Source: Burkholderiales bacterium
GTDB lineage: Bacteria > Pseudomonadota > Gammaproteobacteria > Burkholderiales > Casimicrobiaceae
Reading direction: 5' to 3'
Length of the DNA stretch: 33,646 bases
Assembly: GCA_025935675.1 (NCBI GenBank)
Contig: JAICUU010000011.1
Coordinates: 1-33,646, forward strand
Shown here: positions 751 through 14,494 of the stretch, piece by piece
Layout of the letters: the number at the start of each line of letters is the position of its first letter
Numbering within the stretch: the first letter of the stretch is position 1
The notes under the pieces: model-generated
The model's input: only the letters and a program-made list of their open reading frames with translations
Database searches by the model: none
Told to the model about the DNA's origin: nothing
Translations under genes and position numbers: made by a program

Positions 751-781
751 CGAACTCATACAGATGACTTAGATGAGTTCG
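751..781. promoter_or_regulatory. 9-bp inverted repeat at the predicted tctC transcript start
   Basis: CGAACTCAT (751-759) and ATGAGTTCG (773-781) are exact reverse complements separated by 13 bases. The spacer and arm contain CATACAGATGAC, loosely like the CATATACATGAC of site B. It could be a second operator that blocks initiation, or a hairpin at the 5' end of the mRNA. Confidence 0.45.
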
Positions 782-906: not shown

Positions 907-1878
907 ATGCGTCGTCCAAGCGCGCGCGCTGCCATCATCCCGTTGCTGGGCCTCGTCGCCGCGACGATGCTCATTCCCGTACCCGCTGCGGCGCAGGACA
1001 AGTACCCGTCGCGGCCGATCGAGTTCATCGTGCCCTGGGGCCCGGGCGGCGGCGCCGACCAGGTCGCGCGCAAGATCGGCCAGCTGCTCGAGGCCGATCT
1101 CAAGGTGTCGCTGCCGGTCGTCAACGTGCCGGGCGCCACCGGGCAGACCGGCCACGCGAAGCTCCTTTCCGCGAACGCCGACGGCTACACGATCGAGGTG
1201 ATGACCGGCGATACGTTCGCGCTGGCGGCGATGCCGAACTCGCCCATCAAGCTCGCCGAGGTCATCCCGATCGGCATCCTGATCCAGCAGGCGTCGGGCT
1301 TCTTCGTCGCCGAGAATTCGCCGATGAAGACCTGGGCCGACGTCGAGGCCGAGGCGAAGAAGCGCCCGCTCAAGGTCGCGATCACCGGCTTCAACAGTCC
1401 CGACGACCTCTCCGTCAGCTATTTCGCCGCGCGCGGCATGAAGCTGCAGCCGGTTCCGTACGCCAAGCCCGGCGAGCGCTACACGTCGATCATCGGCGGC
1501 CACGCCGATCTCCTCTACGAGCAGGCCGGCGACGTGCGCAACTTCGTCGACAGCAAGCAGATCCGGCCGGTGATCTTCTTCTACGGCAGCAAGGTCGACG
1601 CGTTCCCGAGCATCCCGACGTCGACGAGCCTCGGCCACGACATCACGCTGCCGCAGTTCCGCGTCGTGCTCGTCAAGGCCGGCACCGATCCCGCACGCGT
1701 CAAGATGCTCTCCGATGCGATCGGCAAGGCGGCGCAGAGCCCCGACTTCAAGGCGTACCTCAAGGAGCAGTACGCCGACGAGGCGAGCTACGTGCCCGCG
1801 GACAAGACGCAGGCCTACATGCAGAAATGGCTCGACGAGGCGCGCCACCTGATGGCGGCGATCGCCGCCAAGAAGTAA
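907..1878 (+). CDS. tctC: TctC/Bug-type periplasmic substrate-binding protein of a tripartite tricarboxylate transporter
   Basis: This 323-residue protein is the periplasmic receptor of a TTT transporter. Residues 1-28 form a signal peptide ending at PAAAQ. The mature start KYPSRPIEFIVPWGPGGGAD is the family hallmark: the glycine-rich loop (PWGPGGGAD) binds a carboxylate through main-chain amides. The length is normal for Bug proteins. The start at 907 is set by GGAGGAG at 893-899, seven bases upstream; an in-frame ATG at 838 would add 23 residues with no signal-peptide character. It is the first gene of the unit, ahead of tctB and tctA, downstream of a promoter with GntR-type sites. Bug proteins bind varied carboxylates, so the ligand cannot be read from sequence. 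Confidence 0.93.
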   Translation: MRRPSARAAIIPLLGLVAATMLIPVPAAAQDKYPSRPIEFIVPWGPGGGADQVARKIGQLLEADLKVSLPVVNVPGATGQTGHAKLLSANADGYTIEVMTGDTFALAAMPNSPIKLAEVIPIGILIQQASGFFVAENSPMKTWADVEAEAKKRPLKVAITGFNSPDDLSVSYFAARGMKLQPVPYAKPGERYTSIIGGHADLLYEQAGDVRNFVDSKQIRPVIFFYGSKVDAFPSIPTSTSLGHDITLPQFRVVLVKAGTDPARVKMLSDAIGKAAQSPDFKAYLKEQYADEASYVPADKTQAYMQKWLDEARHLMAAIAAKK

Positions 1879-1892
1879 TCTCTGCCGTCGTC

Positions 1893-1925
1893 GCGAGACG
1901 GTCCGGCGCCGCCGCGCCGTCTCGC
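1893..1925 (+). promoter_or_regulatory. Intercistronic hairpin between tctC and tctB
   Basis: GCGAGACGG (1893-1901) pairs perfectly with CCGTCTCGC (1917-1925) around a GC-rich 15-base loop. No T-run follows, so it is not a standard terminator. A hairpin here would suit 3'-end protection of the tctC message, since binding proteins are usually made in excess of their membrane partners. It ends a few bases before the tctB ribosome site. Confidence 0.5.
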
Positions 1926-1937
1926 CGGAGCCCTGCC

Positions 1938-2510
1938 GTGCCCCAACGCCTGCGCGCGCTCGCGCCGTACGTTGTCGTCCTCGCGATCGCCGCGTATTTC
2001 TACTACGTCGCGTCGAAGTTCGCGTTCACACCGCGCGGCGGGCGCCTCGGCCCCGACGTGTGGCCGCGCACGATCCTCGTGCTGACGATGATCGTCTGCG
2101 TGCTGCGCATCGCGGCCGGCCTGCGTGCGCCCCGCGGCGACGCGCCGGCGGACGCCGACGGCGGCCTGATCGCCGACGTCGCCAAGGACGCCGGGCATGC
2201 GAGCGATGCCGCAACCGAAGCGCCCGCCGAGCGCTACCCGGCGCGGCTCGCGATCGGCATCGCGCTGACGGTCGCGTACGTCGCCACGCTCGGCGTCGTC
2301 GGCTTCGCCGTCGGCACGTTCGTCTACATGCTCGCGATGACGGTGGTCGGCCGCTACCGGCGCTACGGCGTGGCGACGATCGTGTCGCTCACCGGCGCGC
2401 TGGTGCTCATGTTCGTGTTCATGAAGGTCGTCTACCTTTCGCTGCCGATCGGCGTCGCGCCGTTCGAGTCGGTGTCGCTGGCGCTGATGCGCCTGATGGG
2501 CGTGCGCTAG
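1938..2510 (+). CDS. tctB: TctB-like small membrane subunit of the TTT transporter
   Basis: About 190 residues starting at GTG 1938, with CGGAG seven bases upstream. No ATG is available before the first membrane segment. Hydrophobic segments are at about residues 10-27, 42-60, 95-125 and 130-150, the four-helix pattern of TctB, with FTPRGGRLGPDVWPR after the first helix as in the family (tip of the first loop, G-x-D-x-x-P). A charged, Ala/Asp-rich loop separates the helix pairs. It lies between tctC and tctA; TctB is the poorly conserved small subunit that partners TctA. Confidence 0.85.
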   Translation: MPQRLRALAPYVVVLAIAAYFYYVASKFAFTPRGGRLGPDVWPRTILVLTMIVCVLRIAAGLRAPRGDAPADADGGLIADVAKDAGHASDAATEAPAERYPARLAIGIALTVAYVATLGVVGFAVGTFVYMLAMTVVGRYRRYGVATIVSLTGALVLMFVFMKVVYLSLPIGVAPFESVSLALMRLMGVR

Positions 2511-2521
2511 GCGGCGCGGCG

Positions 2522-4039
2522 ATGCTCGACGTCCTACACCAGCTCGGCGGCGGCTTCGCGGGCCTCCTGCAGGTCGGCAATTTCGTCGCGTTGCTGGTGG
2601 GCCTCGTCGTCGGCATGCTGGTCGCGGTGCTGCCGGGTCTCACGCTGGTGATGGGGGTCGTGCTCGCGCTGCCGTTCACGTACGGGATGCCGATCACCCC
2701 GTCGATCATCCTGCTCACCGCGATGTACATCAGCGGCACCTACGGCGGCGCGATCACGTCGATCCTGTTCCGCATTCCTGGCGAGCCGATGGACGTGCCT
2801 CTGCTGTGGGACGGCTGGTCGATGGCGCACAACGGCGAGCCCGCGCGCGCGCTCGGCTGGACGCTGCTCGCCGCGCTGACCGGCGGCCTCATCACCGCGA
2901 CGGTGATGGTGACGCTGGCGGTGCCGTTCGCCAAGGTCGCGCTGACGTTCGATTCGCCCGAGTATTTCGCGATCGTGATGTTCGGCTTCACGAGCGTGGT
3001 CACGCTGGGCGGCGGGTCGGTGGCGAACGCGTTCATCAGCCTCTTCTTCGGCATGCTGATCTCGACGGTCGGCGTCGACGAGATCTATGGCGTCGACCGC
3101 TTCACGTTCGGCATCGGCATGCTGCGCGACGGCATCGGCTACCTGCCCGTTATGGTCGGCGCGTACGGGCTGGGCGAGGTGCTGGTGCGCCTCGAGCAGG
3201 GCTTCGCGTCGGCGCCGATGACCGGCACCGTGCGCGTCAAGACGCGCATCCCGAGGCTCAAGGAGGCGTGGAGCATTCGCGGCGCGTTCGCGCGCTCGTC
3301 GGTGATCGGCGTCGTCTGCGGGATCATCCCGGGCGCGGGCGCGACGATCGCGTCGTTCATCGCCTACGGCGTCGAAGGCCAGTACGGCAAGCGCCGCCGC
3401 GAGCTCGGCCGCGGCATTCCCGAGGGCATCGTCGCGCCGCAGGTCGCGTCCACCGCGTCGGTCGGCGGCCACATGGTGCCGCTGCTGACACTCGGCATCC
3501 CCGGCAGCGGCGCCACCGCGGTGATCCTCGGCGCGTTCCTGCTGCATGGCGTGCAGCCCGGCCCGCAGATCTTCGACACGCAGGCGGCGCTCGTCTACCA
3601 GATCTTCGCGTCGATGTTCGTCGCGGTGTTCGGCATGGGCCTGCTCGGCTACTTCGCGATCCGCCCGCTGGTGCGCGTGCTCTACCTGCCCGAGGCGCTG
3701 GTTTCGGTGTTCGTCATCATGTTCTGCCTGATCGGCGCATACTCGGAGCACAACAACATCACCGACCTCTGGATGATCGTCGTGTTCGGCGTCGTCGGCT
3801 ACCTGTTCGAGCGCTATCGCTTCCCGATCGCGCCGATGGTGCTTGGCGCGATCCTGGGCCCCGTGGCGGAGAACGCGTTCCTGACGTCGATGATCAGCTA
3901 CCAGAACGACTGGACGATCTTCTTCACGCGGCCGGTGAGCGGCATCGTGCTGGTGCTCGCGCTCGTCGCGCTGCTGTTCCCGCTGTACGGGCACTGGCGC
4001 CGCCAGCGCGCGGCGCGCCTCGTGGCGGCGGCGCGATGA
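2522..4039 (+). CDS. tctA: TctA large membrane subunit of the TTT transporter
   Basis: A 505-residue protein of the usual TctA length with about a dozen hydrophobic segments. It carries the two family signatures: VAVLPGLTLVMG near residue 35 and GIIPGAGATIASFIAYG near residue 263, followed by HMVPLLTLGIPGSGATAV. It forms the sodium- or proton-coupled permease that takes substrate from TctC. Translation starts at ATG 2522, 11 bases after the tctB stop. The stop codon is part of ATGA at 4036-4039, which opens a 12-residue mini-ORF leading to the next gene, so translation may be coupled downstream. Confidence 0.95.
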   Translation: MLDVLHQLGGGFAGLLQVGNFVALLVGLVVGMLVAVLPGLTLVMGVVLALPFTYGMPITPSIILLTAMYISGTYGGAITSILFRIPGEPMDVPLLWDGWSMAHNGEPARALGWTLLAALTGGLITATVMVTLAVPFAKVALTFDSPEYFAIVMFGFTSVVTLGGGSVANAFISLFFGMLISTVGVDEIYGVDRFTFGIGMLRDGIGYLPVMVGAYGLGEVLVRLEQGFASAPMTGTVRVKTRIPRLKEAWSIRGAFARSSVIGVVCGIIPGAGATIASFIAYGVEGQYGKRRRELGRGIPEGIVAPQVASTASVGGHMVPLLTLGIPGSGATAVILGAFLLHGVQPGPQIFDTQAALVYQIFASMFVAVFGMGLLGYFAIRPLVRVLYLPEALVSVFVIMFCLIGAYSEHNNITDLWMIVVFGVVGYLFERYRFPIAPMVLGAILGPVAENAFLTSMISYQNDWTIFFTRPVSGIVLVLALVALLFPLYGHWRRQRAARLVAAAR

Positions 4040-4074
4040 CGGCTCGCGGCACGCTCGCGACGGGGGCCCGGTGA
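4036..4074 (+). CDS. Bridging mini-ORF (12 residues) between tctA and the aldehyde dehydrogenase gene
   Basis: ATG at 4036 overlaps the tctA stop (ATGA), and the mini-ORF's own TGA (4072-4074) overlaps the GTG start of the next gene (GTGA). It encodes MTARGTLATGAR. The GGGGG inside it serves as the likely ribosome site of the next gene. A functional peptide is doubtful; a coupling role in translation is more plausible. Two other junctions of this cluster (10299-10367 and 11764-11958) have the same layout. Confidence 0.35.
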   Translation: MTARGTLATGAR

Positions 4075-5486
4075 CGCGCGACGACACGACGCCGCGCGAC
4101 GCGACCGTCGACGCGCTCGTCGCGCGTGCGCGCACCGCGCAGCGCGCGTTTGCGCGCGCCGACCAGGCGGCCGTCGACGCGGCCGTGCTCGCGGCAGGCT
4201 GGGCGATCATGGAGCCCGCGCGCAATCGCATGCTGGCCGAGCGCGCCGTCGCGGATACCGGCATCGGCGACGTCGGCGACAAGATCCGCAAGAACCATCG
4301 CAAGACGCTCGGCCTGCTGCGTGATCTCGCCGGCGCGAAGTCGGTTGGCGTCATTGCCGAAGACGCCGCGAGCGGCATCACCGAGATCGCGCGGCCGGTC
4401 GGTGTCGTCGCGGCGATCACGCCGTCCACCAATCCGGCGGCCACACCCGCGAACAACGTCATCTGCGCGCTCAAGGGCGCCAACGCGGTCATCCTCGCAC
4501 CTTCGCCGAAGGGTGCCGGCATCGGCGCGCTGCTGGTCGATTACATCCATGCCGAGCTCGCGAAAGTCGGCGCGCCGGCCGACCTCGTGCAGATCCTGCC
4601 TCCGCCGGTGACGCGCGAGGCGACGCAGGCGCTGATGGCGGCGGCCGATCTCGTCGTCGCCACGGGCTCGGCGGCGAACGTGCGCGCCGCGTACCGCAGC
4701 GGCACGCCGGCGCTCGGCGTGGGTGCGGGCAACGTCGCCGTCATCGTCGACCCGAGCGCTGATGCAGGGAAGGCCGCATCGCTGATCGCCGCGTCGAAGA
4801 CGTTCGACCACGCGACGAGCTGCTCGTCGGAAAACAGCGTGATCGCGATCGGCGCCGCCGATGCGCCGCTGCGCGCCGCGCTCGAGGCCGAGGGCGGCGT
4901 GTTCGTCGACGCTGAGGAGAAGGCCGCGCTCGCGCGCGCGATGTGGCAGGACGGCCGGCTCGCAACAGCGATCATCGCCAGGCCCGCCACGGCGATCGCC
5001 GCGGTGGCGGGCCTCGTGCGGCCCGCGTTCGAGACCGCGCGCTTCCTCGTCGTCGACGAGGACGGTGTCGGTCCCGCGCATCCGTTCTCTGGCGAGAAGC
5101 TGTCGCCGGTGCTCGCGTATTACCGCGTGCCCGACTTCGACGTGGCGAAGGCGCTGGTCGCGCGCATCTACGGCTACCAGGGCGCCGGGCATTCGGTCGG
5201 CATCCACACCATGTCGGACGAGCAACCGGTCGCGCTCGGTCGCGAGCTGCCGGTGGCACGCGTCATCGTCAACCAGGCGCACTGCTTCGCGACCGGCGGC
5301 AGCTTCGACAACGGGCTGCCATTCTCGCTGTCGATGGGCTGCGGCACGTGGGGCCGCAACAGCTTCTCCGATAACCTCAACTACCGGCACTACCTCAATA
5401 TCACGCGGGTCGCGCGCGTGATTCCCGAGCGCGTGCCGCGCGAGAACGAGATCTTCGGCGCATGGCACGCGCGCTACGGGCGATGA
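4071..5486 (+). CDS. CoA-acylating aldehyde dehydrogenase (SauS/AdhE-N-like)
   Basis: A 471-residue ALDH-superfamily enzyme that should interconvert an aldehyde and its acyl-CoA with NAD(P). Visible marks are ITPSTNPAATPANN (residues ~121-134), where ordinary ALDHs have their cofactor helix, GVGAGNVAVIVD, and FDHATSCSSENSV with the catalytic Cys at residue 251. The C-terminal MGCGTWGRNSFSDN matches the acylating branch (AdhE N-domain, EutE/PduP, sulfoacetaldehyde dehydrogenase SauS). The glutamate base of non-acylating ALDHs is not evident. Start is GTG 4071 after GGGGG. The adjacent acyl-CoA ligase makes a SauS/SauT-like pair, but no sulfoacetaldehyde acetyltransferase gene is in the window, so the aldehyde stays open. 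Confidence 0.85.
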   Translation: MTRDDTTPRDATVDALVARARTAQRAFARADQAAVDAAVLAAGWAIMEPARNRMLAERAVADTGIGDVGDKIRKNHRKTLGLLRDLAGAKSVGVIAEDAASGITEIARPVGVVAAITPSTNPAATPANNVICALKGANAVILAPSPKGAGIGALLVDYIHAELAKVGAPADLVQILPPPVTREATQALMAAADLVVATGSAANVRAAYRSGTPALGVGAGNVAVIVDPSADAGKAASLIAASKTFDHATSCSSENSVIAIGAADAPLRAALEAEGGVFVDAEEKAALARAMWQDGRLATAIIARPATAIAAVAGLVRPAFETARFLVVDEDGVGPAHPFSGEKLSPVLAYYRVPDFDVAKALVARIYGYQGAGHSVGIHTMSDEQPVALGRELPVARVIVNQAHCFATGGSFDNGLPFSLSMGCGTWGRNSFSDNLNYRHYLNITRVARVIPERVPRENEIFGAWHARYGR

Positions 5487-5565
5487 GGTCGGCGCGGCGC
5501 GCCGCGCGACGGGCAAGACGGCGCGGGGCGAGGCGACGGGACAGGCGGACGCGACGCTGCGCGAC

Positions 5566-7086
5566 GTGTTGCGCGATCATCTCGCGCACGCGCCCGAAGC
5601 GCCGTTCCTGATCGCGCCCGAGACCGGGCGCACGCTGCGCTACGCCGATATCGCCGCCGAGACCGCGGCGCTCGCCGCGATGCTCGACGCGCGTGGCCTC
5701 GCCGCCGGCGCAGTCGTCGGGCTCTTCCTGCCCAACGGGCTTCGCACCACGGCGCTGTTCCTCGCGACGATGCTCGCCGGTCGCGTCGTCGCGCCGTTCA
5801 ACCTGATCGCCCAGAAAAGCCAGCTCGCGCATTGCCTCGACCACGGCGACGCGCGGATCGTCTTTACGACGGCGCAGGAGCGCGCGCGGCTCGACGAGGC
5901 GCTCGCGGCGCTGCCCGACGCGCGCCGGCACGCGATCGAGATCGTCGCGGTCGATCCGGACACGCCCGGCGCCACCGCCGGCGCCGCGAGCGATCCAGGA
6001 CGCGCGCTCGCGGGGCTGCCGCCGATCGATACGGCGTCGCCCGCGCTTCTCATGTACACGTCGGGCACGACCGGGCTGCCGAAGGGTGCGCTGTTGACGC
6101 ATGGCAACCTGGTCGCCGGCGCGCGCGCGGTGGCGGCGTGGCACGGCCTCGGTCGCGACGACCGCTGCCTGTCGTCGCTGCCGCTCTATCACATCAACGG
6201 CCAGTGCATCGCCACGCTGACGCCGTTCGTGTCGGGCGGCAGCGTCGTCGCGCCGCGGCGCTTCAGCGTGTCGCAATGGTGGCCGCTGGTCGACGCGCAC
6301 CGGCCGACGTGGCTCAACATGGTGCCGACGATCATCGCCTACCTGATCAACGCGACTGACGGCGGTGACGGCACGCGCCGCGCATTCGTGCGCTTCGGGC
6401 GATCGGCGTCGGCGCCGCTGCCGCCCGAGCAACACCGCGCGTTCGAGGCGCGCTTCGGCGTCGGCGTCGTCGAGGCGATGGGCATGACCGAATGCGCGTC
6501 GGTCGTGCTTTGCAATCCGCAGGATGCGCCGCGCCGCAAGATCGGCTCGCCGGGATTGCCGTGCGGTGTCGAGCTCAAGGTCGTGAAGGTCGGCGACCCC
6601 GACGATGCGCCGCTGCCCGACGGCGTGCCCGGCGAGCTTTTGCTGCGCGGGCCCAACGTGATGGCCGGCTATTACAAGGAGCCCGAACTGACGGCCGCCG
6701 CGATCACGCGCGACGGCTGGCTGCGCACCGGCGATTTGGGCTACCGCGACGCCGACGGCTTCTACTTCATTACCGGGCGCCTGAAGGAGCTCATCATCAA
6801 GGGCGGCGAGAACATCGCGCCGCGCGAGATCGACGAGGCGCTGCTCGCGCACGAGGCGGTGCTGGAGGCGGCCGCGGTCGGCGTGCCCGATCCGCACTAC
6901 GGCCAGGAGATCCTCGCTTGCGTGGTGCTGAAGCAGGGCCGTCGCGCGACCGAAGACGACATCCGGGAGCATTGCCTGCGCGAGCTCGGCCGCTACAAGA
7001 CGCCGCGCACGATCCGCATCGTCGCCGAGCTGCCGAAGGGCGCGTCCGGCAAGATCCAGCGGTTGAAGCTGCTCGACCTCGCCTGA
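5566..7086 (+). CDS. AMP-forming acyl-CoA ligase (ANL superfamily)
   Basis: A 506-residue ligase that activates a carboxylate through an acyl-AMP to its CoA thioester. It has the P-loop-like A3 motif YTSGTTGLPKG (from residue 164), GMTEC in the A5 region, DGWLRTGDLGYRDADGFYFITGR (A7/A8 hinge, in two halves), GGENIAPREID, and PKGASGKIQR with the A10 lysine at residue 496. The start is not firm: GTG 5566 or TTG 5569 fit, no clear ribosome site is visible, and the 79 bases after the ALDH gene hold no better in-frame start. It is the last gene of the unit and converges with gntR, 10 bases away. It could make the acyl-CoA used by the acylating dehydrogenase; the substrate is unknown (sulfoacetate- or oxalate-type ligases are possible relatives). 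Confidence 0.88.
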   Translation: MLRDHLAHAPEAPFLIAPETGRTLRYADIAAETAALAAMLDARGLAAGAVVGLFLPNGLRTTALFLATMLAGRVVAPFNLIAQKSQLAHCLDHGDARIVFTTAQERARLDEALAALPDARRHAIEIVAVDPDTPGATAGAASDPGRALAGLPPIDTASPALLMYTSGTTGLPKGALLTHGNLVAGARAVAAWHGLGRDDRCLSSLPLYHINGQCIATLTPFVSGGSVVAPRRFSVSQWWPLVDAHRPTWLNMVPTIIAYLINATDGGDGTRRAFVRFGRSASAPLPPEQHRAFEARFGVGVVEAMGMTECASVVLCNPQDAPRRKIGSPGLPCGVELKVVKVGDPDDAPLPDGVPGELLLRGPNVMAGYYKEPELTAAAITRDGWLRTGDLGYRDADGFYFITGRLKELIIKGGENIAPREIDEALLAHEAVLEAAAVGVPDPHYGQEILACVVLKQGRRATEDDIREHCLRELGRYKTPRTIRIVAELPKGASGKIQRLKLLDLA

Positions 7087-7096
7087 CGGCGCGCGC

Positions 7097-7837
7097 TCAG
7101 CGCTGGCCGAGCACGCTGAGGTAACGGTGGTGCGCGGTGTTGACGAAGCGCACACGCGTGTCGACCGGCGTGCCGTCGTGCGCGTATGCCGTGCGCGCGA
7201 TGCGCAGCACCGCCGCGGGCTCGGGCAGTGCGAGGAGCTCGCGCACCCGCGCGTCGGCGACCGCCGCGGTAATCGACTCCTCGATGCGCACGACGGTGAT
7301 GTCGTAGCGCGACTGGTAGAGCGCGTAGACGGTGGTGTCGCGCTCGGTGAACACTTCCTTCGTCATGCCGGGAAAGAGCTCCGCGGGTAGCCGGATGCGG
7401 TCGAAGATCACCGGCGCGCCGTCGAGGTGCAGCAGCGCCTCGATCTGCAGCACCGGCGCGCCGGCGCGCAGCGCCAGCGCCTGCGCGCTGGCGGCGTCGG
7501 CGGCCGTGCGGCGGAACGACAGCGTCCGCGATTGCGGAAAGCGCTTCTCGCCGTGGCGGTCGACGATCGCGAAAAAGCGCGTCAGCATCACGTCGCGCGT
7601 GTGGCTGGCGACAAACGTGCCGCTGCCCTGGCGGCGCACCAGCACGCCCTCGGCGACGAGCTCGCCGACCGCGCGCCGCAGCGTGCCGACACTCGCGCCG
7701 AAGCGACGCGCCAGCGCGGGCTCGGGCGGCAGCGCCTGTCCGTGCCGCCAGGTGCCGTCGTGCAGCGCGTCGCCGAGCCGGCGCTTGACGGCCTTGTAGA
7801 GCGGCGCTTGGCCGGGCGTGCCGCGGGTCGATCGCAT
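7097..7837 (-). CDS. GntR-family regulator, HutC/UTRA type
   Basis: 246 residues. Residues ~12-75 form the winged helix (LYKAVKRRLGDALHDG, then LPPEPALARRFGASVGTLRRAV and the wing RQGSGTFV). Residues ~95-235 are a UTRA effector domain (VLQIEALLHLDGAPVIFDRIRLP, ending FVNTAHHRYLSV). It probably controls the two catabolic units on either side, using a metabolite of the pathway as effector. The ATG at 7837 begins about seven bases after a TATGAT -10 element, so the mRNA may be leaderless. The motif at 7845-7856 overlaps that -10, as expected for self-repression. No longer in-frame start exists because upstream ATGs are in other frames. Confidence 0.9.
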   Translation of the reverse strand: MRSTRGTPGQAPLYKAVKRRLGDALHDGTWRHGQALPPEPALARRFGASVGTLRRAVGELVAEGVLVRRQGSGTFVASHTRDVMLTRFFAIVDRHGEKRFPQSRTLSFRRTAADAASAQALALRAGAPVLQIEALLHLDGAPVIFDRIRLPAELFPGMTKEVFTERDTTVYALYQSRYDITVVRIEESITAAVADARVRELLALPEPAAVLRIARTAYAHDGTPVDTRVRFVNTAHHRYLSVLGQR

Positions 7838-7843
7838 CGCGCA

Positions 7844-7872
7844 ATCATATACATGACATTGTCAAGCGGCAA
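7844..7872 (-). promoter_or_regulatory. Promoter of the gntR gene
   Basis: On the minus strand: TTGCCG (7872-7867), exactly 17 bases, TATGAT (7849-7844). The expected transcript start falls at about 7837-7838, on the ATG itself. The GntR-type palindrome 7845-7856 covers the -10. Confidence 0.55.
7845..7856. promoter_or_regulatory. Putative GntR operator, site B (gntR / TSUP divergent region)
   Basis: TCATATACATGA is one mismatch from the palindrome TCATGTACATGA and nearly identical to site A at 679-690. The similarity extends outward: GCAAT precedes the cores of both sites. It covers the gntR -10 and lies 27 bases before the -35 of the opposite promoter, so it could serve both directions. 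Confidence 0.65.
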
Positions 7873-7883
7873 GGATTCGGCGA

Positions 7884-7912
7884 TTGACGGCTCGTGCGGC
7901 GCAGGCAACACT
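7884..7912 (+). promoter_or_regulatory. Promoter of the TSUP-enolase-mutase unit
   Basis: TTGACG (7884-7889), 17 bases, AACACT (7907-7912). This is the same -35 as the tctC promoter and a near-identical -10, at nearly the same offset from the operator. The predicted start is near 7919, with a leader of about 50 bases to ATG 7970. No cobalamin riboswitch fits in so short a leader. Confidence 0.45.
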
Positions 7913-7969
7913 ATCGGGGATAGATATAAATGAATTTGGCCCGCTGCGCGCGGCATGAAGGATGGTCCG

Positions 7970-8707
7970 ATGAGCGACCTCGTGGTCCTCGTCCTCGGTG
8001 CGGTGGCGGGCTCGCTGGTGTTCGGGGTGTCCGGATTCGCGTTCGCGCTGACGGCCTCTGCGATCTGGCTGCAGCGCCTGCCGCCGGCGCAGGTCGTGCC
8101 GCTTGCTGTCGTGTGCCCATTGATGCTGAACGTCGTCACCCTTCCCGCGCTGCGCCGTGACATTCGTGTCGCGGCGCTGTGGCCGTTCCTCGTCGGCGGC
8201 ACGTTCGGCGTGCCGCTCGGCGTCCTCGTCGTGCTGCATGGCGACCGCCTCGTGCTCGCGCGCCTCATCGCCGTCATCCTGATCGCATACAGCGCATTCG
8301 CGCTGGTGCGCAGGCGCGCCGTCGAGCTGCGGCTCGCGACCGCGCCGGGGCGCGTCGCGGACGGCGGCGTCGGGCTGGTCGGCGGCATCCTCGGCGGCAT
8401 CGCCGGACTGTCGGCGGTATTGCCGAGCCTGTGGATCGGCATGCGCGGCTGGACCAAGCCCGAGCAGCGCGGCCTCTTGCAGTCGTACGGCTTCTACACG
8501 CAGGCGCTGACGATCACCGTGTTCGCCGGCATCGCCGGATTCGATGCCGCGACGCTCGAGGCGCTCGCGATCTGCCTGCCGATCGCCGTCGTGGGCAGCC
8601 TCGTCGGCTTCAGGCTGTTCCGGCGCATGAGCGGGGATGCCTTCCGACGCGCGGTCCTCGCGATCGTGCTCGCCGGCGGCATCGGGCTGCTGGTGCGGAC
8701 GCTCTGA
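7970..8707 (+). CDS. TSUP (TauE/SafE-like) membrane transporter
   Basis: About 245 residues with roughly eight hydrophobic segments in two repeats: LVLGAVAGSLVFGVSGFAF at the start and GLVGGILGGIAGLSAVLPSLW in the middle, the repeated Gly-rich helices of the TauE/SafE/YfcA family. Members export sulfite, sulfoacetate or other small anions, or exchange organic acids; the family alone does not reveal the substrate. I prefer ATG 7970 because AAGGA (7958-7962) is well placed before it; ATG 7955 in the same frame would add five residues (MKDGP) without a ribosome site. It is the first gene of the rightward unit, six bases before the enolase-superfamily gene. Confidence 0.85.
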   Translation: MSDLVVLVLGAVAGSLVFGVSGFAFALTASAIWLQRLPPAQVVPLAVVCPLMLNVVTLPALRRDIRVAALWPFLVGGTFGVPLGVLVVLHGDRLVLARLIAVILIAYSAFALVRRRAVELRLATAPGRVADGGVGLVGGILGGIAGLSAVLPSLWIGMRGWTKPEQRGLLQSYGFYTQALTITVFAGIAGFDAATLEALAICLPIAVVGSLVGFRLFRRMSGDAFRRAVLAIVLAGGIGLLVRTL

Positions 8708-8713
8708 CCGGCG

Positions 8714-9847
8714 ATGAGCGAGCCACGCGCAACGCGGATCGAAATGATCGACGCGCACCTCCTCGCGGTGCCGCTGATCGAGCCCTACCGGCTCGCGTTC
8801 GGTCCCGTCGAGCGCTACGACACGATCATCGTCGGGCTCGCCGACGCCGACGGCCGGCGCGGATTCGGCGAGGCGACGCTGCTCACCGGCTACACCGACG
8901 AGACGATTGGCGAGGCGTGGCCGGCGGCGCGCGAGCTCGCGCAGTCGCTCGCCGGCCTCGCGCATGACGACGTCGCCGCGCGCGCCGATGCGCTCGCCGC
9001 ACGCGCGCCGTTCCTCGCGACCGCGTTCCGCAGCGCGCTCGACATGCTCGCGGGCCATCCGCTGCTCGATGTCGATCGCGTCATGCGCGTGCCGGTGCTG
9101 GGGCTCCTGCAGGGCGCCGATGCGAAGGCGCTGGACGACGCTTTCGCGCGGCTCCTCGACGAGGGTTACCGCACCGTCAAGGTCAAGGTCGGCTTCGACG
9201 TCGACGACGATCTCGCGCACGTCGCGCGCGTGCAGGCCGCCGTCGCGGGGCGCGCGGCGATCCGCGTCGACGCCAACCAGGGCTACGACGCGGCGAAGGC
9301 CGTCGCCTTCATCAAACGCGTCGATCCCGCCGGCATCGAGCACTTCGAGCAGCCCTGCGCCGCCGGCGACTGGGTCGCGCACCACGCCGCCGCCGACGCC
9401 GCGGCCCGTACCGGCCTGCCGCTGATGCTCGACGAGTCGATCTACGGTCTCGCCGACATCGAGCGCGCGGCGCGCGAGCACGCCTGTCGCAACCTCAAGG
9501 TCAAGCTGATGAAGTTCGCAGGACTCGACGCGCTCACCGCGGCGATCGCCCGCATCCGCGCGCTCGGCATGCGCCCCGTGCTCGGCAACGGCGTCGCCTG
9601 CGACGTGTCGTGCTGGATGGAGGCCTGCGTCGCCGCGCGCCACATCGACAACGCCGGCGAGATGAACGGCTTTCGCAAGGCGACGCGCATGCTGCTCGAT
9701 CCGCCGCTCGCGTTCGAGGACGGCCACATCGTGCTCACGCCGGGCCTGCGGCCGACACTCGACCGCGCCGCGCTCGATCATTACACGGTCGATCGCGTTG
9801 CCGCGCGGCGGGCGAGCGTGGCGATGGCCGGAGCGGTTCCGCGATGA
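8714..9847 (+). CDS. Enolase-superfamily enzyme, muconate-lactonizing / dipeptide-epimerase subgroup
   Basis: 377 residues. The N-terminal capping domain is followed by a TIM barrel with the subgroup's active-site set. K156-V-K158 is the KxK acid/base pair; D186 (DANQ), the glutamate of EHFEQP (209-214) and D240 (DES) are the metal ligands. [11 protein letters not shown] carries the opposite-face lysine (K264 or K267), close to the IKLMK-GG form seen in N-acylamino-acid racemases and dipeptide epimerases. Such enzymes abstract a proton alpha to a carboxylate, giving racemization, cycloisomerization or elimination. It is not a methylaspartate ammonia-lyase, whose sequence signature differs. 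Its stop overlaps the start of the GlmS-like gene (ATGA), so it is tightly coupled to the B12 mutase genes. The true substrate is unknown. Confidence 0.87.
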
Positions 9848-10302
9848 GCGCGCCGCGCGCCGCCACGGCGACCCCCTTCACGCTGGTGACCGGCGTCATC
9901 GGCGCCGACACGCACATCGTCGGCAATCGCATCCTTTCGATGGCGCTCGAGGAAGCGGGCTATCGCGTCGTGTCGCTCGGCGCGCTCACGCCGGCCGGCG
10001 ACTTCATCCGCGCCGCCGTGGAGACCGCCGCCGACGCGATCCTCGTGTCGTCGCTGTACGGCCAGGGCGAGCTCGATTGCCGGGGCTTTCGCGAGCTCTG
10101 CATCGAGGCCGGCCTCGACGACATCCTGCTCTACGTCGGCGGCAACCTCGTCGTCGGCAAGCAGCCGTGGGACGACGTCGAGCGTCGCTTCCTCGACATG
10201 GGCTTCGACCGCGCGTTCGCGCCGGGCACGCGCGTGCCCGAGGCGCTCGCGATGCTCGGCGCCGATCTTGCGGCACGCACGCCGAAGGCGGCACGACAGT
10301 GA
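9844..10302 (+). CDS. Cobalamin-binding small subunit of a glutamate-mutase-like enzyme (GlmS/MutS-like)
   Basis: 152 residues, slightly longer than clostridial GlmS because of a short N-terminal tail. The B12-binding signature is intact: D22-x-H24-x-x-G27 ([11 protein letters not shown]24 being the lower cobalt ligand), SSLYGQGE and [11 protein letters not shown]. It should bind adenosylcobalamin and pair with the GlmE-like subunit encoded downstream. Similarity to GlmS is high along its length ([17 protein letters not shown] and FAPGTRVPE segments). It starts inside the stop of the enolase-superfamily gene, and its own TGA is part of GTGA that opens the bridging mini-ORF 10299-10367. Confidence 0.92.
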
Positions 10303-10367
10303 GCGCACCGATGGCGTCGCTGCATGCAGCGCGAGCGGGGCCGCAAGCGCGGAGGCTTCGCCCGTGA
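10299..10367 (+). CDS. Bridging mini-ORF (22 residues) between glmS-like and mutL-like genes
   Basis: GTG 10299 overlaps the GlmS-like stop (GTGA). The TGA at 10365-10367 overlaps the GTG start of the MutL-like gene, again GTGA. The peptide begins VSAPMASL and ends ARRLRP. Its codons 17-20 (GCGCGGAGGCT) coincide exactly with codons 17-20 of the first unit of the 11764-11958 mini-ORF, and both contain the GGAGG used by the next gene. I read it as a translation-coupling linker rather than a protein gene; a real small peptide cannot be excluded. Confidence 0.4.
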
Positions 10368-11767
10368 GCCTCGCGCTCCTCATCGACTTCGGCAGCACGT
10401 ATACGAAGCTTCGCGCGCTCGATCTTGCGAGCGGCGACATCGCCGCCAGCGCGCAAGGCCCGTCGACGGTGACGAGCGACGTCAACGTCGGCCTCGACGC
10501 CGCGATGGCGGCGCTTGCACGCGTGCTCGGCGGCACGCCGCGCTTCGCGCACCGCCTCGCCTGCAGCAGCGCAGCCGGCGGATTGCGGATGGTCACCGTC
10601 GGCCTCGTCAAGGAGCTGACCGCGGAGGCCGCGCGGCAGGCGGCGCTCGGCGCGGGCGCGAAGCTCGTCGCGAGCCATGCGTACCGGCTGACTGCCGCGG
10701 ATGTTGCGCGCATCGTCGAGCGCGCGCCCGACATCGTGCTCTTGTGCGGCGGCACCGACGGCGGCAATCGCGACGTCGTCGTGCACAACGCGCACGCGCT
10801 CGCCGCGTCGACGCTCGCCTGCCCGGTGGTCGTCGCGTGCAATCGCGAGGCGGCCGACGACGTCGTCGCAGCGCTCGCCGCCGCGGGCAAGGCCGCGATC
10901 GCCACCGCCAATGTGCTGCCCGGCCTCGACACGCTCGACATCGAGCCCGCGCGCGCGGCGATCCGCGACGTGTTCATGCGCCGCATCGTCGCCGCCAAGG
11001 GCATCGAGCGCGCCGCCGCGCGCTTCGACGCCGTGCTGATGCCGACGCCGGCCGCGGTGCTCGAAGGCGCGCGCCTCCTGGCCGACGGCACGCCGCGGCG
11101 CAAGGGCCACGGTCCGCTCGTCGTCATCGACCCGGGCGGCGCGACGACCGACGTGCACTCGATCGGCCGCGGCGAGCCGTCCACGCCCGGGGTGATCCGC
11201 TACGGCCTGCCCGAGCCGTATGCCAAGCGCACCGTCGAGGGCGACCTCGGCATGCGCCACAACGCCGAGGCGATCGCCGCGGCGGCGGGCATCGACGCAA
11301 TCGCCGCCGATGCGGGTGTGCCGGTCGCGGTCGCGACGGACGCGATCGCGGCGTTGCACGCCGATGTCGAGACGCTGCCGCGCGATCCCGCGCAATTCGC
11401 GCTCGACGCCGCACTCGCGCGCGCGGCGATCCGCATCGCCATGACACGCCACGCCGGTACCTGCGAGACCGTGTACACCGCACAAGGACCGGTCAGCGTG
11501 CAGCGCGGCAAGGACCTCTCCGACGTCGGCCTCGTCATCGGCACCGGCGGCGCGCTCGTGCATGCGCGCAACCCTGCGGCGATCCTCGCGGTGGCCGCGG
11601 CGGACGCGGCCGATCCGCTGTCGCTGCGCCCGCGCGCGCCGCGCTTCGCGATCGACCGGCATTACCTCCTGTACGCCGCCGGCCTACTCGCCGAGGCGGC
11701 GCCCGACGCGGCGTTCGACCTCGCCACGCGACATCTCGATCTGCTGACCGAAGGAGCGACCGCATGA
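10364..11767 (+). CDS. MutL/GlmL-like ATPase, reactivase of the B12-dependent mutase
   Basis: 467 residues of the ASKHA (actin/Hsp70-fold) family. LIDFGSTYTKLRALD at the N-terminus is the phosphate-1 motif and VVIDPGGATTDVHS in the middle is the phosphate-2 motif. LACSSAAGGLRMVTVGLV and VLLCGGTDGGNRD are typical of the glutamate mutase MutL family. Its presumed job is to swap damaged cobalamin out of the mutase at the cost of ATP. The start is GTG 10364, with GGAGG at 10351-10355, and it puts the phosphate-1 motif right at the N-terminus as in the family. A longer in-frame reading from 10268 would run through the GlmS-like gene and is unlikely. The stop overlaps the ATG of the repeat mini-ORF. 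Confidence 0.92.
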   Translation: MSLALLIDFGSTYTKLRALDLASGDIAASAQGPSTVTSDVNVGLDAAMAALARVLGGTPRFAHRLACSSAAGGLRMVTVGLVKELTAEAARQAALGAGAKLVASHAYRLTAADVARIVERAPDIVLLCGGTDGGNRDVVVHNAHALAASTLACPVVVACNREAADDVVAALAAAGKAAIATANVLPGLDTLDIEPARAAIRDVFMRRIVAAKGIERAAARFDAVLMPTPAAVLEGARLLADGTPRRKGHGPLVVIDPGGATTDVHSIGRGEPSTPGVIRYGLPEPYAKRTVEGDLGMRHNAEAIAAAAGIDAIAADAGVPVAVATDAIAALHADVETLPRDPAQFALDAALARAAIRIAMTRHAGTCETVYTAQGPVSVQRGKDLSDVGLVIGTGGALVHARNPAAILAVAAADAADPLSLRPRAPRFAIDRHYLLYAAGLLAEAAPDAAFDLATRHLDLLTEGATA

Positions 11768-11958
11768 GCACGCCGGGCCGTCCCAAGTGCGAATCAGCCC
11801 CGAAGCGCGCAGCGCGGAGGCTCGTCCGATCCACGCCGGGCCGTCCCAAGTGCGAATCAGCCCCGAAGCGCGCAGCGCGGAGGCTCGTCCGATCCACGCC
11901 GGGCCGTCCCAAGTGCGAATCAGCCCCGCAGCACGCAGCGCGCAGGGTGGGCCAATGA
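11764..11958 (+). CDS. Bridging mini-ORF made of three 21-residue repeats, between mutL-like and glmE-like genes
   Basis: ATG 11764 overlaps the MutL-like stop (ATGA) and TGA 11956-11958 overlaps the ATG of the GlmE-like gene (ATGA). The 64-residue product is three copies of a very basic unit that starts STPGRPKCESAPKRAAR. Copies 1 and 2 are identical in DNA; copy 3 diverges at its end, where AGGGTGGG becomes the ribosome site of glmE. It has one cysteine per unit and no recognised domain. The unit length of 63 bases keeps the frame whatever the copy number. A coupling or spacing role seems likelier than an enzyme-associated peptide. Confidence 0.45.
   Translation: MSTPGRPKCESAPKRAARRLVRSTPGRPKCESAPKRAARRLVRSTPGRPKCESAPQHAARRVGQ
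11769..11957 (+). repeat. Tandem repeat, 3 x 63 bp
   Basis: Units at 11769-11831, 11832-11894 and 11895-11957. The first two are identical over 63 bases. The third matches for about the first two thirds, then differs where the start site of the GlmE-like gene lies. Units 1 and 2 each carry GGAGG (11816-11820 and 11879-11883) without a start codon at the right distance, as if a ribosome-site segment had been duplicated. Confidence 0.95.
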
Positions 11959-13466
11959 ACGACATCGCGAGCCCCAAAGCCGTCGCAGCGCCGCTGCGCG
12001 AAACGGCGATCCCGGACGACGATTTCCAGGCGATGCGCGTCGCCAACCTCGCGCGCTGGCCGACCGGCGCCGCCGTCGATTTCGACGAGGCGGTCGCGTT
12101 CCACCACGCGCTGCCGCCGCACAAGCGACTCGCCGATGCGATGCGCCGCGCGCACGACGGGCGGCGCTGCCTCACGCAACCGCGCGGCGGCTTCGGCACG
12201 CTGGCGATGCAAAAGGCGCTGATGATCGCGCTCGACCGCGACGGCCTCGCCGACATCGTGCCGACGACCACCGACAGCTACACGCGCAACGAGCAGTTCG
12301 CCGCGGCGGGGAAGGGCGTCGAGGAGTCCGAGCGACTCGGGCGCTCGCTGCTCAACGGCTTTCCGATCGTCAACTACGGCGTCGCCGCCGCGCGCGAGCT
12401 CATCGGCGCGATCGACAAGCCGGCGATCATGCTCACCGGCACGTCGATGCCGAAGCTCACCAGCGAGATCGGCTTCGCCGCGGGCTACACGGGCTACCTC
12501 GGCTCCGGCATCGCCTACACGACGTCGTACATCAAGGAGCTGTCGATCGCCGACGGCATCCGCAACTACCAGTACCTCGACCGCCTCGCCGCGCATTACG
12601 CGTCGCATGGCGTCGAGCTGCACCGCCGCCAGCCGGGTTTCCTCACCGGCACCAACATCCCGCCCTGCATCGCCATCGCGATCGCGGTGCTCGATTGCCT
12701 GCTCGCCGCCGCGCAGGGCGTTCGCCACTACGGCCTCGAGCTCGCGCAGACGCTGCACCTCGTGCAGGACGCCGCGGCGATCGCCGCCTGCGAGGCGCTC
12801 GCGCAGGAGTACCTCGCGAGGAAAGGCTATCGCGACGTGTTCACGCCGGTCACCTCACTGCACTGGATGGGCGCGTGGCCGCACGATGCCGCGCAGGCGG
12901 CAACGCTGGTGAGCTACGGCGGCACGCTCGCGGCGATCGGCGGCGCGACGAGCGTCACCACCAAGTCGACGCACGAGGCGCACGGCATCCCGACACCCGA
13001 GGCGAACGCCGAGGGCCTGCGGATCACGCGGATGGCGATCTACCTCGCGCGCGGCATTCGCCTCGACGGCCTCGCCGAATACGAGGCCGAGCGCACGCTG
13101 ATCGAGCGCGAGGTGCGCGCGATCGTCGACAAGGTGCTCGAGATGGGCGATGGCGACGTCGCGGTGGGCACGGTGCGCGCGTTCGAGGCCGGCGTGCTCG
13201 ACGTGCCATGGTCGCCCAATCGCCACGTGAAAAGCCGCGTGATGCCGGCGCGCGACGCGCGCGGCTACCTGCGCATCTTCGACGCCGGCGCGCTGCCGCT
13301 GCCGCGCGACGTGCTGGAGGTCCACGCCGAGGGCTTGCGCGAGCGCGCCGCACGCGAAGGCGTGGCGTGCGACCGCGAGCTCGCGATCCGCAGCGTCTAC
13401 GAGCTCTCCGAGCCGCTCGCGATGCTCGCGCCCGACCGGCCGATGCCCGCCGCGGCGGCCCGGTGA
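11955..13466 (+). CDS. Catalytic large subunit of a glutamate-mutase-like B12 enzyme (GlmE-like), substrate residues altered
   Basis: 503 residues, collinear with Clostridium cochlearium GlmE as I remember it (constant offset of 11 residues through the key positions). Shared stretches are ARWPTG, LTQPRGG, YTR, GRSLLNGFP-VNYGV, FLTGTNIPP, GTVRAFEAGVLDVP. Adenosine-binding Lys326 and Glu330 correspond to K337 and E341 (KSTHE). Of the substrate arginines, Arg66 and Arg100 are R77 and R111, but Arg149 is L160. Glu171, which holds the substrate amino group, is L182. Tyr177 and Tyr181 are kept (Y188, Y192). It should carry out an adenosylcobalamin radical carbon-skeleton rearrangement, probably not on glutamate. 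Start ATG 11955 is preceded by AGGGTGGG; an in-frame GTG at 11787 would only add repeat-encoded sequence. Confidence 0.9.
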   Translation: MNDIASPKAVAAPLRETAIPDDDFQAMRVANLARWPTGAAVDFDEAVAFHHALPPHKRLADAMRRAHDGRRCLTQPRGGFGTLAMQKALMIALDRDGLADIVPTTTDSYTRNEQFAAAGKGVEESERLGRSLLNGFPIVNYGVAAARELIGAIDKPAIMLTGTSMPKLTSEIGFAAGYTGYLGSGIAYTTSYIKELSIADGIRNYQYLDRLAAHYASHGVELHRRQPGFLTGTNIPPCIAIAIAVLDCLLAAAQGVRHYGLELAQTLHLVQDAAAIAACEALAQEYLARKGYRDVFTPVTSLHWMGAWPHDAAQAATLVSYGGTLAAIGGATSVTTKSTHEAHGIPTPEANAEGLRITRMAIYLARGIRLDGLAEYEAERTLIEREVRAIVDKVLEMGDGDVAVGTVRAFEAGVLDVPWSPNRHVKSRVMPARDARGYLRIFDAGALPLPRDVLEVHAEGLRERAAREGVACDRELAIRSVYELSEPLAMLAPDRPMPAAAAR

Positions 13467-14494
13467 TGAATTCGCGGATCGGCAGTGACGCCGTCGCGGC
13501 GACGATGCCCGCGGTCGCCGTCGACGCGTTCGGCGGTCCCGACGCGCTGGTGCTGCGCGACGTGCCGCGGCCCGCGCCGGGGCCGGGCGAGGTGCGCGTC
13601 AAGGTCCGCCGCGCGGGCGTCAACTACATCGACGTCTACATGCGCAACGGCACCTACGCACGCTCGCACACGTATCCGACGCCGCTGCCGATGATCCTCG
13701 GCATGGAAGGTGCCGGTGCCGTCGACGCGGTCGGCGAGGGCGCCGGCGCGTGGCGCCCCGGCACGCGCGTCGCATGGTGCTTAAGCCGCGGGGCCTACGC
13801 GGGCTTCGCGATCGTGCCGGCATGGAAGCTCGTCGCGGTGCCCGACGCGATTGCCGACGACGTCGCCTGCGCGCTGATGCTGCAGGGATCGACGGCGCAT
13901 TACCTTACGCATTCGGCGTACCCGCTCGCCGCGGGTCACACCTGCCTCGTGCACGCGGGTGCGGGCGGCGTGGGCCAACTGCTGATCCAGCTCGCCAAGG
14001 CGCGCGGCGCGGTCGTGATCACGACCGTCGGCAGCGACGACAAGGCGACGATCGCGACGGGGCTGGGCGCCGATCACGTCATCCGCTACCGCGACGTCGA
14101 CTTCGCGCCGGTCGTGCGCGAGCTGACGCAAGGCCGCGGCGTCGACGTCGTCTACGATTCCGTGGGCCGCGACACCCTCGCACGAAGCCTCGAGGTGCTG
14201 CGCCGCCGCGGCCTGTGCGTGCTGTTCGGCGCGAGCTCGGGCGCCGTGGAGTCGATCGCGCCGCTCGCGCTCGCCGAGGCGGGCTCCGTGTTCTTCACGC
14301 GGCCGCATCTCGCCGACTACATGGCCGACGCTGCGGAGATCCGCGCGCGCGCCGCGGACCTCTTCGCCGCCATCGCCGCCGGCCGCCTGCGTGTCGCCAT
14401 CGATCGCACGCTGCCGCTCGCGCGCGCGGCCGTCGCGCACCGGGCGATCGAGGCGCGCGAGACGCGCGGCAAGCTCCTGCTCGCCGTCGACTGA
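13466..14494 (+). CDS. Zeta-crystallin-type NAD(P)H:quinone oxidoreductase (MDR superfamily)
   Basis: 342 residues. GroES-like N-domain (PGPGEVRVKVRRAGVNYIDVYMRNG) and Rossmann domain with HAGAGGVGQLLIQLAKARGA, followed by GADHVIRYRDVDF and VDVVYDSVGRDTL, all typical of QOR. No zinc-binding cysteine/histidine set is visible. It reduces quinones or enones with NADPH; in this cluster it might reduce an unsaturated intermediate, which is inference only. ATG 13466 overlaps the GlmE-like stop (TGATG); ATG 13505 in the same frame is an alternative. It is the last gene of the unit, and no T-rich terminator follows. Confidence 0.88.
   Translation: MNSRIGSDAVAATMPAVAVDAFGGPDALVLRDVPRPAPGPGEVRVKVRRAGVNYIDVYMRNGTYARSHTYPTPLPMILGMEGAGAVDAVGEGAGAWRPGTRVAWCLSRGAYAGFAIVPAWKLVAVPDAIADDVACALMLQGSTAHYLTHSAYPLAAGHTCLVHAGAGGVGQLLIQLAKARGAVVITTVGSDDKATIATGLGADHVIRYRDVDFAPVVRELTQGRGVDVVYDSVGRDTLARSLEVLRRRGLCVLFGASSGAVESIAPLALAEAGSVFFTRPHLADYMADAAEIRARAADLFAAIAAGRLRVAIDRTLPLARAAVAHRAIEARETRGKLLLAVD

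Follow-up and report, generated by a model that had tools for sequence, protein, structure and literature searches.

A glutamate mutase-like gene set with an altered active site and its candidate role in C2-C3 sulfonate breakdown

What does a glutamate mutase-like gene set do when it is found beside a transporter, an acyl-CoA ligase and a sulfoacetaldehyde dehydrogenase? The question is raised by a 33,646-nucleotide stretch of contig JAICUU010000011.1 (assembly GCA_025935675.1) from a Burkholderiales bacterium of the Casimicrobiaceae, hereafter the window, in which two gene units flank a GntR regulator gene and the right-hand unit encodes GlmS-, GlmL- and GlmE-like proteins. The catalytic subunit, GlmE, belongs to a subfamily in which residues that hold the glycyl half of glutamate are replaced, and genomes that encode this subfamily commonly carry genes of sulfonate degradation. 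A sulfonate role of the mutase cluster is, in our estimate, highly probable, with C2-C3 sulfonates as the most likely class of compound, in preference to a carboxylate of unspecified kind; far more tentatively, we propose that GlmS and GlmE constitute a B12-dependent 2-/3-sulfopropionate mutase.

A GlmE subfamily with a replaced glycyl site

A search of genome contigs with GlmE returned 74 loci (L numbers denote loci or regions, G numbers genomes), of which 71 were kept (L013-L083, 1.02 Mb) after removal of L084 and L085, at 31-34% identity, and of L086, a short match. Whole-genome profiles were compiled for 50 of these loci (L013-L062) and for seven more genomes, giving 57, or 56 with the identical G400 and G100 counted once. 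Hyphomicrobium sp. CS1BSMeth3 is an example of a cultured carrier. Plasmid records gave 30 matches, every one below 60% identity, and one subfamily member (L068, 60% identity), with Sdh-like genes and an enolase gene after glmE, comes from a metagenome-assembled genome labelled Bacillota, reflecting either transfer or a binning error.

The GlmE, GlmS and GlmL proteins of the window all score above the equivalog cut-offs for glutamate mutase (TIGR01503, NF002612 and NF040745, respectively), as would be expected of an ordinary glutamate mutase that happens to lie beside unrelated sulfonate genes. The active site points elsewhere. In the Clostridium cochlearium enzyme, R66, R149 and E171 bind the glycyl half of the substrate, R149 and E171 contacting the glycyl carboxylate and amine, and R100 and Y177 are the deduced seat of acrylate (PMC9545868, in the part available). 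In the numbering of that enzyme, in which R100, 149, 171, Y177 and 214 correspond to R111, L160, L182, Y188 and R225 of the window protein, window GlmE retains R66, R100, N123, Y177, Y181, K326 and E330, and carries the switches Q147I, R149L, H150T, E171L, G173S, P180S and E214R. Throughout an 89-row alignment, R149L, E171L, G173S and P180S are present in 75 of the 75 subfamily rows that have a letter there, and E214R in 76 of 76, with R66, R100, Y177, Y181, K326 and E330 unchanged across the subfamily; R149 and E171 are retained together by 7 of the 10 remaining matched rows, by the reference from C. cochlearium, and by both L113 and L114. Position 214, which we take to be an active-site residue, was chosen beforehand and afterwards proved to be among the subfamily-specific switches. 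As read from the alignment, the site preserves its acrylate half, loses the amine ligand together with one carboxylate ligand, and gains an arginine as well as several hydroxyl residues.

An AlphaFold2 model of window GlmE (pLDDT 90.8) superposes on glutamate mutase with TM 0.92/0.96 and rmsd 1.2. By the secondary structure of the model, barrel strands 3, 4 and 5 have L160, L182 and R225 at their C-terminal ends or adjacent to them; R225 may contact the sulfo group of a substrate. The window set thus has the fold, subunits, cobalamin motif and acrylate-binding R100/Y177 of the C. cochlearium GlmS/GlmE and GlmL system (1cb7/6h9e), and differs from it in leucines for R149 and E171, arginine for E214, serines for G173 and P180, and a genome without an ammonia-lyase match.

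An ordinary glutamate mutase is, for these reasons, a highly unlikely reading. The replacement of glycyl-binding residues extends to all subfamily rows that have a letter at those positions; PF07476 (methylaspartate ammonia-lyase) is unmatched in the window genome and exceeds 150 bits in only 5 of the 56 subfamily genomes (8 of 56 at the 27-bit cut-off); and the GlmE proteins of Gemmobacter fulvus and Ensifer adhaerens, whose neighbours are annotated as methylaspartate ammonia-lyase, CoA-transferase, CoA ester lyase, and fumarase or a FumA/TtdB-type hydratase, retain the canonical residues. A preliminary description of the window had set the GlmE-like protein apart from ordinary glutamate mutase metabolism and had seen no ammonia-lyase gene in the region, and both points stand.

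Glutamate fermentation via methylaspartate was rejected as a candidate function on account of the residues, the missing ammonia-lyase match and the different neighbours. Elsewhere in the family, the GlmE proteins of L012, L084 and L085 retain R149, have threonine or proline in place of E171 and show further changes in the site, possibly reflecting other substrates.

Sulfonate genes in the same genomes

The 56 subfamily genomes were compared with 70 GlmE-negative genomes of a single order, namely that of the window (G001-G075 minus five, four with a GlmE match and one 68% complete). Xsc was found above its cut-off in 48 of 56 subfamily genomes versus 6 of 70 controls, an SdhA-like flavoprotein in 49 (48 of them with no less than 61% identity and one with 47%) versus 9, and a SuyB-like protein in 46 versus 10 (Fisher p 1e-19, 4e-18 and 8e-15, respectively, kinship uncorrected). 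SdhA-like and SuyB-like genes occur together in 41 of 56, and SauS exceeds its cut-off in 45 of 56, a count that stands without a control. At least one of these four is present in every subfamily genome except G428, whose GlmE locus (L042) ends in an Xsc-like fragment. In a phylum-wide draw, with up to three candidates scored per genome, Xsc was found in 26 of 398 genomes.

Twenty regions around SdhA- and SuyB-like genes were collected from 19 subfamily genomes, mostly for the nearness of the two genes and in two cases because they belong to the window genome. Matches to SuyB, SdhA, FumA and FumB occur together in 17 of the 20, with SdhB and SdhC in most, ComC-like genes in 11, SlcC-like genes in 7, and TctC or TSUP matches in between in several; the Fum matches of L123, L124 and L133 are merely 28-36% identical. 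Of 13 regions inspected, 10 have a related SuyA-type small open reading frame (ORF) ahead of SuyB, a putative SAF-type small subunit by sequence inspection alone. The SuyB-like protein of L037, the candidate UxaA-type large subunit, has Pfam GD_AH domains, and its homologue in the window genome is 71% identical to it. The window genome carries ComC-like, SdhA, FumB, FumA, SdhC and SdhB matches on one contig (L115) and SuyB, SuyA-like and GntR genes on another (L116). Some genomes bring these genes and the mutase together: in L130, Sdh-Fum, MLE-GlmSLE and ComC-SuyB matches lie within 20 kb; in L041, Fum beta, SdhA, SlcC-like and ComC-like genes come after the mutase; and in L037, SuyB-like, TctC, TctA, SlcC-like and ComC-like genes precede it.

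Such groups fit a trunk route from 3-sulfopropionate through sulfoacrylate and sulfolactate to pyruvate and sulfite, in which Sdh-like and Fum-like proteins would be the expected catalysts of the steps to sulfoacrylate and sulfolactate. A thesis cited in the available text of PMC11489063 has Roseovarius nubinhibens degrading 3-sulfopropionate via sulfoacrylate and sulfolactate, and the predicted intermediates 3-sulfopropionate, sulfoacrylate and sulfolactate are shared with that route and with HpfXYZ of Enterococcus gilvus; the SucCD-like ligase beside an acylating dehydrogenase of that system is likewise found in some relatives of the window locus, and that text mentions no mutase. A sulfolactate module made up of SlcC/ComC, SuyAB and TauE has been described (PMC12421959, as excerpted), and of this the window genome has SuyA-, SuyB- and ComC-like genes, the last below its cut-off; unlike that module, it adds Sdh-like and class I Fum-like genes, and SlcC is unmatched on the two contigs. 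All nine controls with an SdhA-like gene also have a SuyB-like gene and no GlmE match. Some bacteria thus have the trunk on its own, and the mutase resembles a feeder that has been added to it.

The same genes admit another interpretation, in which the mutase acts on a carboxylate with neither amine nor sulfo group, such as glutarate/methylsuccinate, the Sdh-like complex and class I fumarase are a methylsuccinate dehydrogenase and a mesaconase, and the sulfonate genes are mere neighbours. Loss of the amine ligand E171 is compatible with such a substrate, class I fumarases can use mesaconate (PMC4682846, in the portion available), and both canonical GlmE loci inspected also have fumarase. We regard this interpretation as unlikely, given that R149 is lost too, that Sdh-, Fum- and SuyB-like genes keep company in those 17 of 20 regions (most of them chosen for SdhA-SuyB nearness), and that neither a CoA-transferase nor a CoA ester lyase is found among the scanned neighbour proteins, many neighbour ORFs lying outside the scans. 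The preliminary description had supposed that an imported carboxylate is rearranged and then linked to CoA chemistry; the co-occurring genes make C2-C3 sulfonates the likelier substrates, and the trunk that in our view has the best support, Sdh-Fum-ComC-SuyAB, would need no CoA.

The two units and their recurrence

The units occupy positions 907-7086 and 7970-14494 on either side of the GntR gene, as established by ORF and family scans, in a host genome of 3.68 Mb (410 contigs, 95.7% complete) with a single PF06368 match. The features are as follows.

756..767, plus strand: candidate GntR operator TCATACAGATGA upstream of the left unit, from a motif match alone, with a degenerate copy at 679-690
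907..1878, plus strand: TctC, solute-binding protein of the tripartite tricarboxylate transporter, TTT (PF03401, 68.8 bits; PDB relatives 4x9t and Bug proteins)
1938..2510, plus strand: TctB, small membrane subunit (position, ORF, and tblastn similarity to TctB in 20 of 71 loci); GTG 1938, the first in-frame ATG/GTG/TTG, is a provisional start codon
2522..4039, plus strand: TctA, large membrane subunit (ORF, and tblastn similarity to TctA in 24 of 71 loci)
4071..5486, plus strand: SauS-type CoA-acylating sulfoacetaldehyde dehydrogenase (NF047625, 732.4 bits, cut-off 600)
5566..7086, plus strand: AMP-forming acyl-CoA ligase, candidate SauT, sulfoacetate-CoA ligase (PF00501/PF13193)
7097..7837, minus strand: GntR/UTRA regulator (PF00392, PF07702)
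7845..7856, plus strand: candidate GntR operator TCATATACATGA upstream of the right unit, from a motif match alone
7970..8707, plus strand: TauE/SafE (TSUP) carrier, candidate sulfite/sulfonate exporter (PF01925, 76.8 bits)
8714..9847, plus strand: MLE-subgroup enolase-superfamily enzyme (MR_MLE), candidate 2-sulfopropionate racemase (PF13378, 117 bits)
9844..10302, plus strand: GlmS-type cobalamin-binding subunit, motif DTHIVG (NF002612, 192.6, cut-off 110)
10364..11767, plus strand: GlmL-type reactivating/accessory protein (NF040745, 561, cut-off 475)
11769..11946, no strand: 63-bp tandem repeat in the glmL-glmE gap, 2.8 copies, 97% match
11955..13466, plus strand: GlmE-type catalytic subunit with replaced glycyl-binding residues, candidate sulfopropionate mutase (TIGR01503, 436.5, cut-off 390.1)
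13466..14494, plus strand: MDR reductase of the QOR type, nearest solved relative 2-haloacrylate reductase (1wly)

The coordinates and strands of all genes named in the preliminary description were reproduced, as was its arrangement of two units around a GntR gene. Its view that no characterised pathway has this enzyme set holds for the right unit, for which no published description was found in the literature searched (subscription journals lie mostly outside it). The left unit is another matter: it is counted as a known kind because the part of PMC12625764 available describes sauST clusters with TTT genes as putative sulfoacetate modules, and cites sauSCD with SauXYZ for Bilophila; PMC5812351 (excerpt) lists SlcHFG as a TTT that serves sulfolactate. 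With the TTT-SauS-SauT and SauXYZ-SauSCD modules of sponge symbionts, Bilophila and Cupriavidus necator the window unit shares TctCBA, a SauS above cut-off and an AMP-forming ligase, and on these family matches it is a putative sulfoacetate module of the kind already described; it differs in adjoining a GntR gene and a mutase unit, and in a genome in which Xsc is unrecognised. The ligase is a general AMP-binding protein, with none of the 25 NCBIfam models listed above its cut-off and an oxalate-CoA ligase as best PDB relative, and its sequence is compatible with SauT.

Within the right unit, K156, K158, D186, E212, D240, K264 and K267 of the enolase-type enzyme are invariant across 20 aligned sequences; we take these to be the KxK motif, the Asp-Glu-Asp metal ligands and the second lysine of the family. 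DTHIVG of GlmS is presumably the DxHxxG cobalamin motif. The TSUP protein fits a candidate sulfite or sulfonate carrier, a fit that had been missed when the gene was first listed. An ORF starting at 11787 crosses the 63-bp repeat in the same frame as GlmE. Farther along the window, two large minus-strand ORFs (17036-21058 and 22644-26165) encode domains of guanylate/adenylate cyclase and AAA_16 ATPase type, accompanied by TPR in one ORF and by a SAM domain in the other, and plus-strand ORFs encode a Mg-chelatase-type protein (21005-22639) and a very long FAD-oxidase/4Fe-4S/DUF3683 protein (25696-29940).

A search for joint occurrence had been suggested in the preliminary description, and the set does recur. 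Counted by tblastn at 1e-15, many of the loci being short, the 71 loci include GlmL in 65, GlmS in 57, MLE in 40, TctC in 38, QOR in 27, TctA in 24, TctB in 20, SauS in 16, SdhA-like in 12, Xsc-like in 11, SucC-like in 10 and SucD-like in 8. Twenty control stretches of 20 kb (0.4 Mb), set manually at round coordinates in 12 genomes of the same order, gave 0 for every one of these genes apart from SucC and SucD (1 each), and also gave 1 for FumA and 2 for the ligase. Under stricter clustering, 9 loci share a cluster with the Xsc of L025 (932 bits versus a cut-off of 676, the sole locus Xsc scored by its model), 10 with SdhA and 8 with SucC. MLE is present in 21 of 26 loci of at least 18 kb; among the 54 with at least 1.3 kb before GlmS, it ends 0-199 bp before GlmS in 18, and lies elsewhere or overlaps in 20.

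The AMP ligase was tried as a locus marker and rejected, at 2 of 71 loci versus 2 of 20 control stretches. SucC-/SucD-like CoA ligase genes replace it near SauS in L022, L036, L043, L047 (the pair that was scanned), L048, L050, L063 and L081. A minus-strand gene belonging to a single sequence cluster lies near SauS/TTT genes in L030, L043, L044, L048, L078 and L081, and its L078 member, the sole one scanned, is saccharopine-dehydrogenase-like. In L024, L027 and L039 a luciferase-like protein takes the position of the enolase, with an Xsc-cluster gene upstream, OadA-like genes downstream and, in some, biotin, PRISE-type or thiolase-type genes; position 147 of GlmE is valine there, not isoleucine.

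Exact copies of TCATNNNNATGA occur twice in the window, once per unit at the two candidate operators, where 0.08 would be expected, in line with a single regulon; because the motif was derived from these very sequences, the count is a lead and no independent test. At one mismatch the window holds 6 copies versus 3.97 expected, no excess over chance, and L115 is likewise weak. Related sites precede the nearest GntR relatives (exact in L017 and L018, one mismatch in L045) and, at one mismatch, the SuyAB-side GntR gene of L116. Exact copies number 2 in 3,850 bases before GntR genes versus 5 in 254,261 elsewhere (three of the five mutually overlapping), and the motif is missing, even at one mismatch, in 3 of 14 regions.

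A candidate sulfo-group mutase

How might these genes work together? The region may represent a GntR-controlled regulon for small 2-sulfocarboxylates, in which TctCBA would import the sulfonate, the ligase and SauS would convert sulfoacetate to sulfoacetaldehyde, and the TauE carrier would export sulfite. A 1,2 shift of either group in 3-sulfopropionate has a single partner, 2-sulfopropionate, and a 2-/3-sulfopropionate mutase is proposed for that reason: GlmS and GlmE, kept active by GlmL, would interconvert the two compounds, the sulfonate counterparts of methylmalonate and succinate, and the enolase-type enzyme, whose two lysine sites suit a racemase, would racemise 2-sulfopropionate at its acidic alpha carbon. 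The pairing of an epimerase with a mutase is familiar from propionate metabolism, where methylmalonyl-CoA is handled by the same logic, the branched isomer being racemised and rearranged to the linear one; here, in contrast, the compounds would be free acids and sulfonates, the mutase is of the GlmE family and the racemase would be of the enolase type. 3-Sulfopropionate would then enter the trunk encoded elsewhere in the genome, with the Sdh-like complex forming sulfoacrylate, the Fum-like hydratase forming sulfolactate, and the ComC-like enzyme (SlcC-like too in some genomes) with SuyAB releasing pyruvate and sulfite.

Because the acrylate site is kept and the glycyl site now holds leucines, an arginine and serine/threonine, acrylate and a sulfite radical are the simplest intermediates. 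A 5'-deoxyadenosyl radical would abstract a hydrogen from the methyl group of 2-sulfopropionate, with R111/Y188 holding the acrylate half and R77 together with the new R225 holding the anionic sulfo group, and SO3 would depart as a sulfite radical and re-add at the neighbouring carbon. Such a B12-dependent sulfo-group mutase, moving SO3 between adjacent carbons through bound sulfite radical and acrylate, is a possibility that we put forward with more doubt than the overall reaction. An enzymatic 1,2-phosphono shift is known (cited in the accessible part of PMC8473560), and the same source describes radical C-S cleavage by IslA, which holds its sulfonate with two arginines and a glutamine. An enzyme with a radical 1,2-sulfo shift was not found in the literature searched, in which sulfomutase-type terms gave an unrelated paper, nor was any report there linking glutamate/methylaspartate mutase to sulfonate-degradation genes, one review of energy conservation merely containing the words.

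IslA also invites the thought that the protein is a B12-dependent sulfite-lyase, eliminating sulfite by a radical route from sulfolactate or a related hydroxysulfonate much as glycyl radical sulfite-lyases do, and the TauE carrier in the unit would suit such an activity. This is very unlikely, since a SuyB-like candidate subunit of sulfolactate sulfo-lyase is already present in 46 of 56 genomes and both the fold and the acrylate-site residues are mutase-like.

The direction of the reaction could be the opposite one, with imported 3-sulfopropionate turned into 2-sulfopropionate, from which the ligase, SauS and Xsc, enzymes of alpha-sulfo acids and aldehydes, would yield propionyl phosphate and sulfite. 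The frequency of SauS (45 of 56) and Xsc (48 of 56), the presence of SauS in the window operon and at 16 of 71 loci, and the suitability of a ligase-SauS-Xsc order to the chemistry of the product speak for such a flow. SdhA-like and SuyB-like genes in 41 of 56 genomes would offer 3-sulfopropionate a shorter route, Xsc is unrecognisable in the window genome, and action of SauS and Xsc on C3 homologues is an assumption; we consider the reversal improbable.

A third possibility, rather less probable again, is reductive desulfonation, in which the mutase forms 3-sulfopropionate, the enolase-type enzyme eliminates sulfite to give acrylate, and the QOR-type enzyme reduces the acrylate. The enolase superfamily does include beta-elimination enzymes, QOR adjoins MLE in 14 of the 20 loci with both, and the nearest solved relative of the QOR protein is the 2-haloacrylate reductase 1wly. 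The lead of 1wly over the next PDB chain, a quinone reductase, is about 12 bits, QOR is found at only 27 of 71 loci, and the co-occurrence of Sdh-Fum-Suy and SauS-Xsc would be left unexplained.

Several observations weigh against a sulfopropionate mutase feeding the trunk. GlmE exceeds the TIGR01503 cut-off (436.5 versus 390.1), and the roles of QOR and the AMP ligase are left unexplained. The best Xsc match of the window genome reaches 283 bits versus a cut-off of 676, and because of this its SauS product has no recognised outlet. The ComC-like protein falls below the NF040650 cut-off (208.5 versus 500), the L041 homologue meeting PF02615; SlcC has no match on the two trunk contigs, L115 and L116; and the SuyB-like protein matches no NCBIfam equivalog, its sole match, galactarate dehydratase, being far below cut-off. 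MLE was not seen in 16 of the 54 loci that extend 1.3 kb or more ahead of GlmS, so the enolase is not always near. The test genomes come from several classes and the controls from one order, and the SauS count has no control. Co-occurrence could mark general sulfonate specialists and not a single pathway, as 4 of 6 Xsc-positive controls also have an SdhA-like gene. No natural source of 2-sulfopropionate was found in the literature searched.

If a 2-/3-sulfopropionate mutase is nevertheless what this GlmE subfamily provides, the glutamate mutase family would gain a further function outside amino-acid fermentation, namely sulfonate breakdown, and radical migration of a sulfo group could join the known chemistry of enzymes. 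The steps from 3-sulfopropionate to sulfolactate would gain candidate genes, and a set of bacteria, most of them uncultured and carrying Alpha-, Beta- or Gammaproteobacteria labels, would be linked to the turnover of C2-C3 sulfonates. A warning also follows for genome annotation, as members of the subfamily that are automatically labelled glutamate or methylaspartate mutase are probably mis-annotated.

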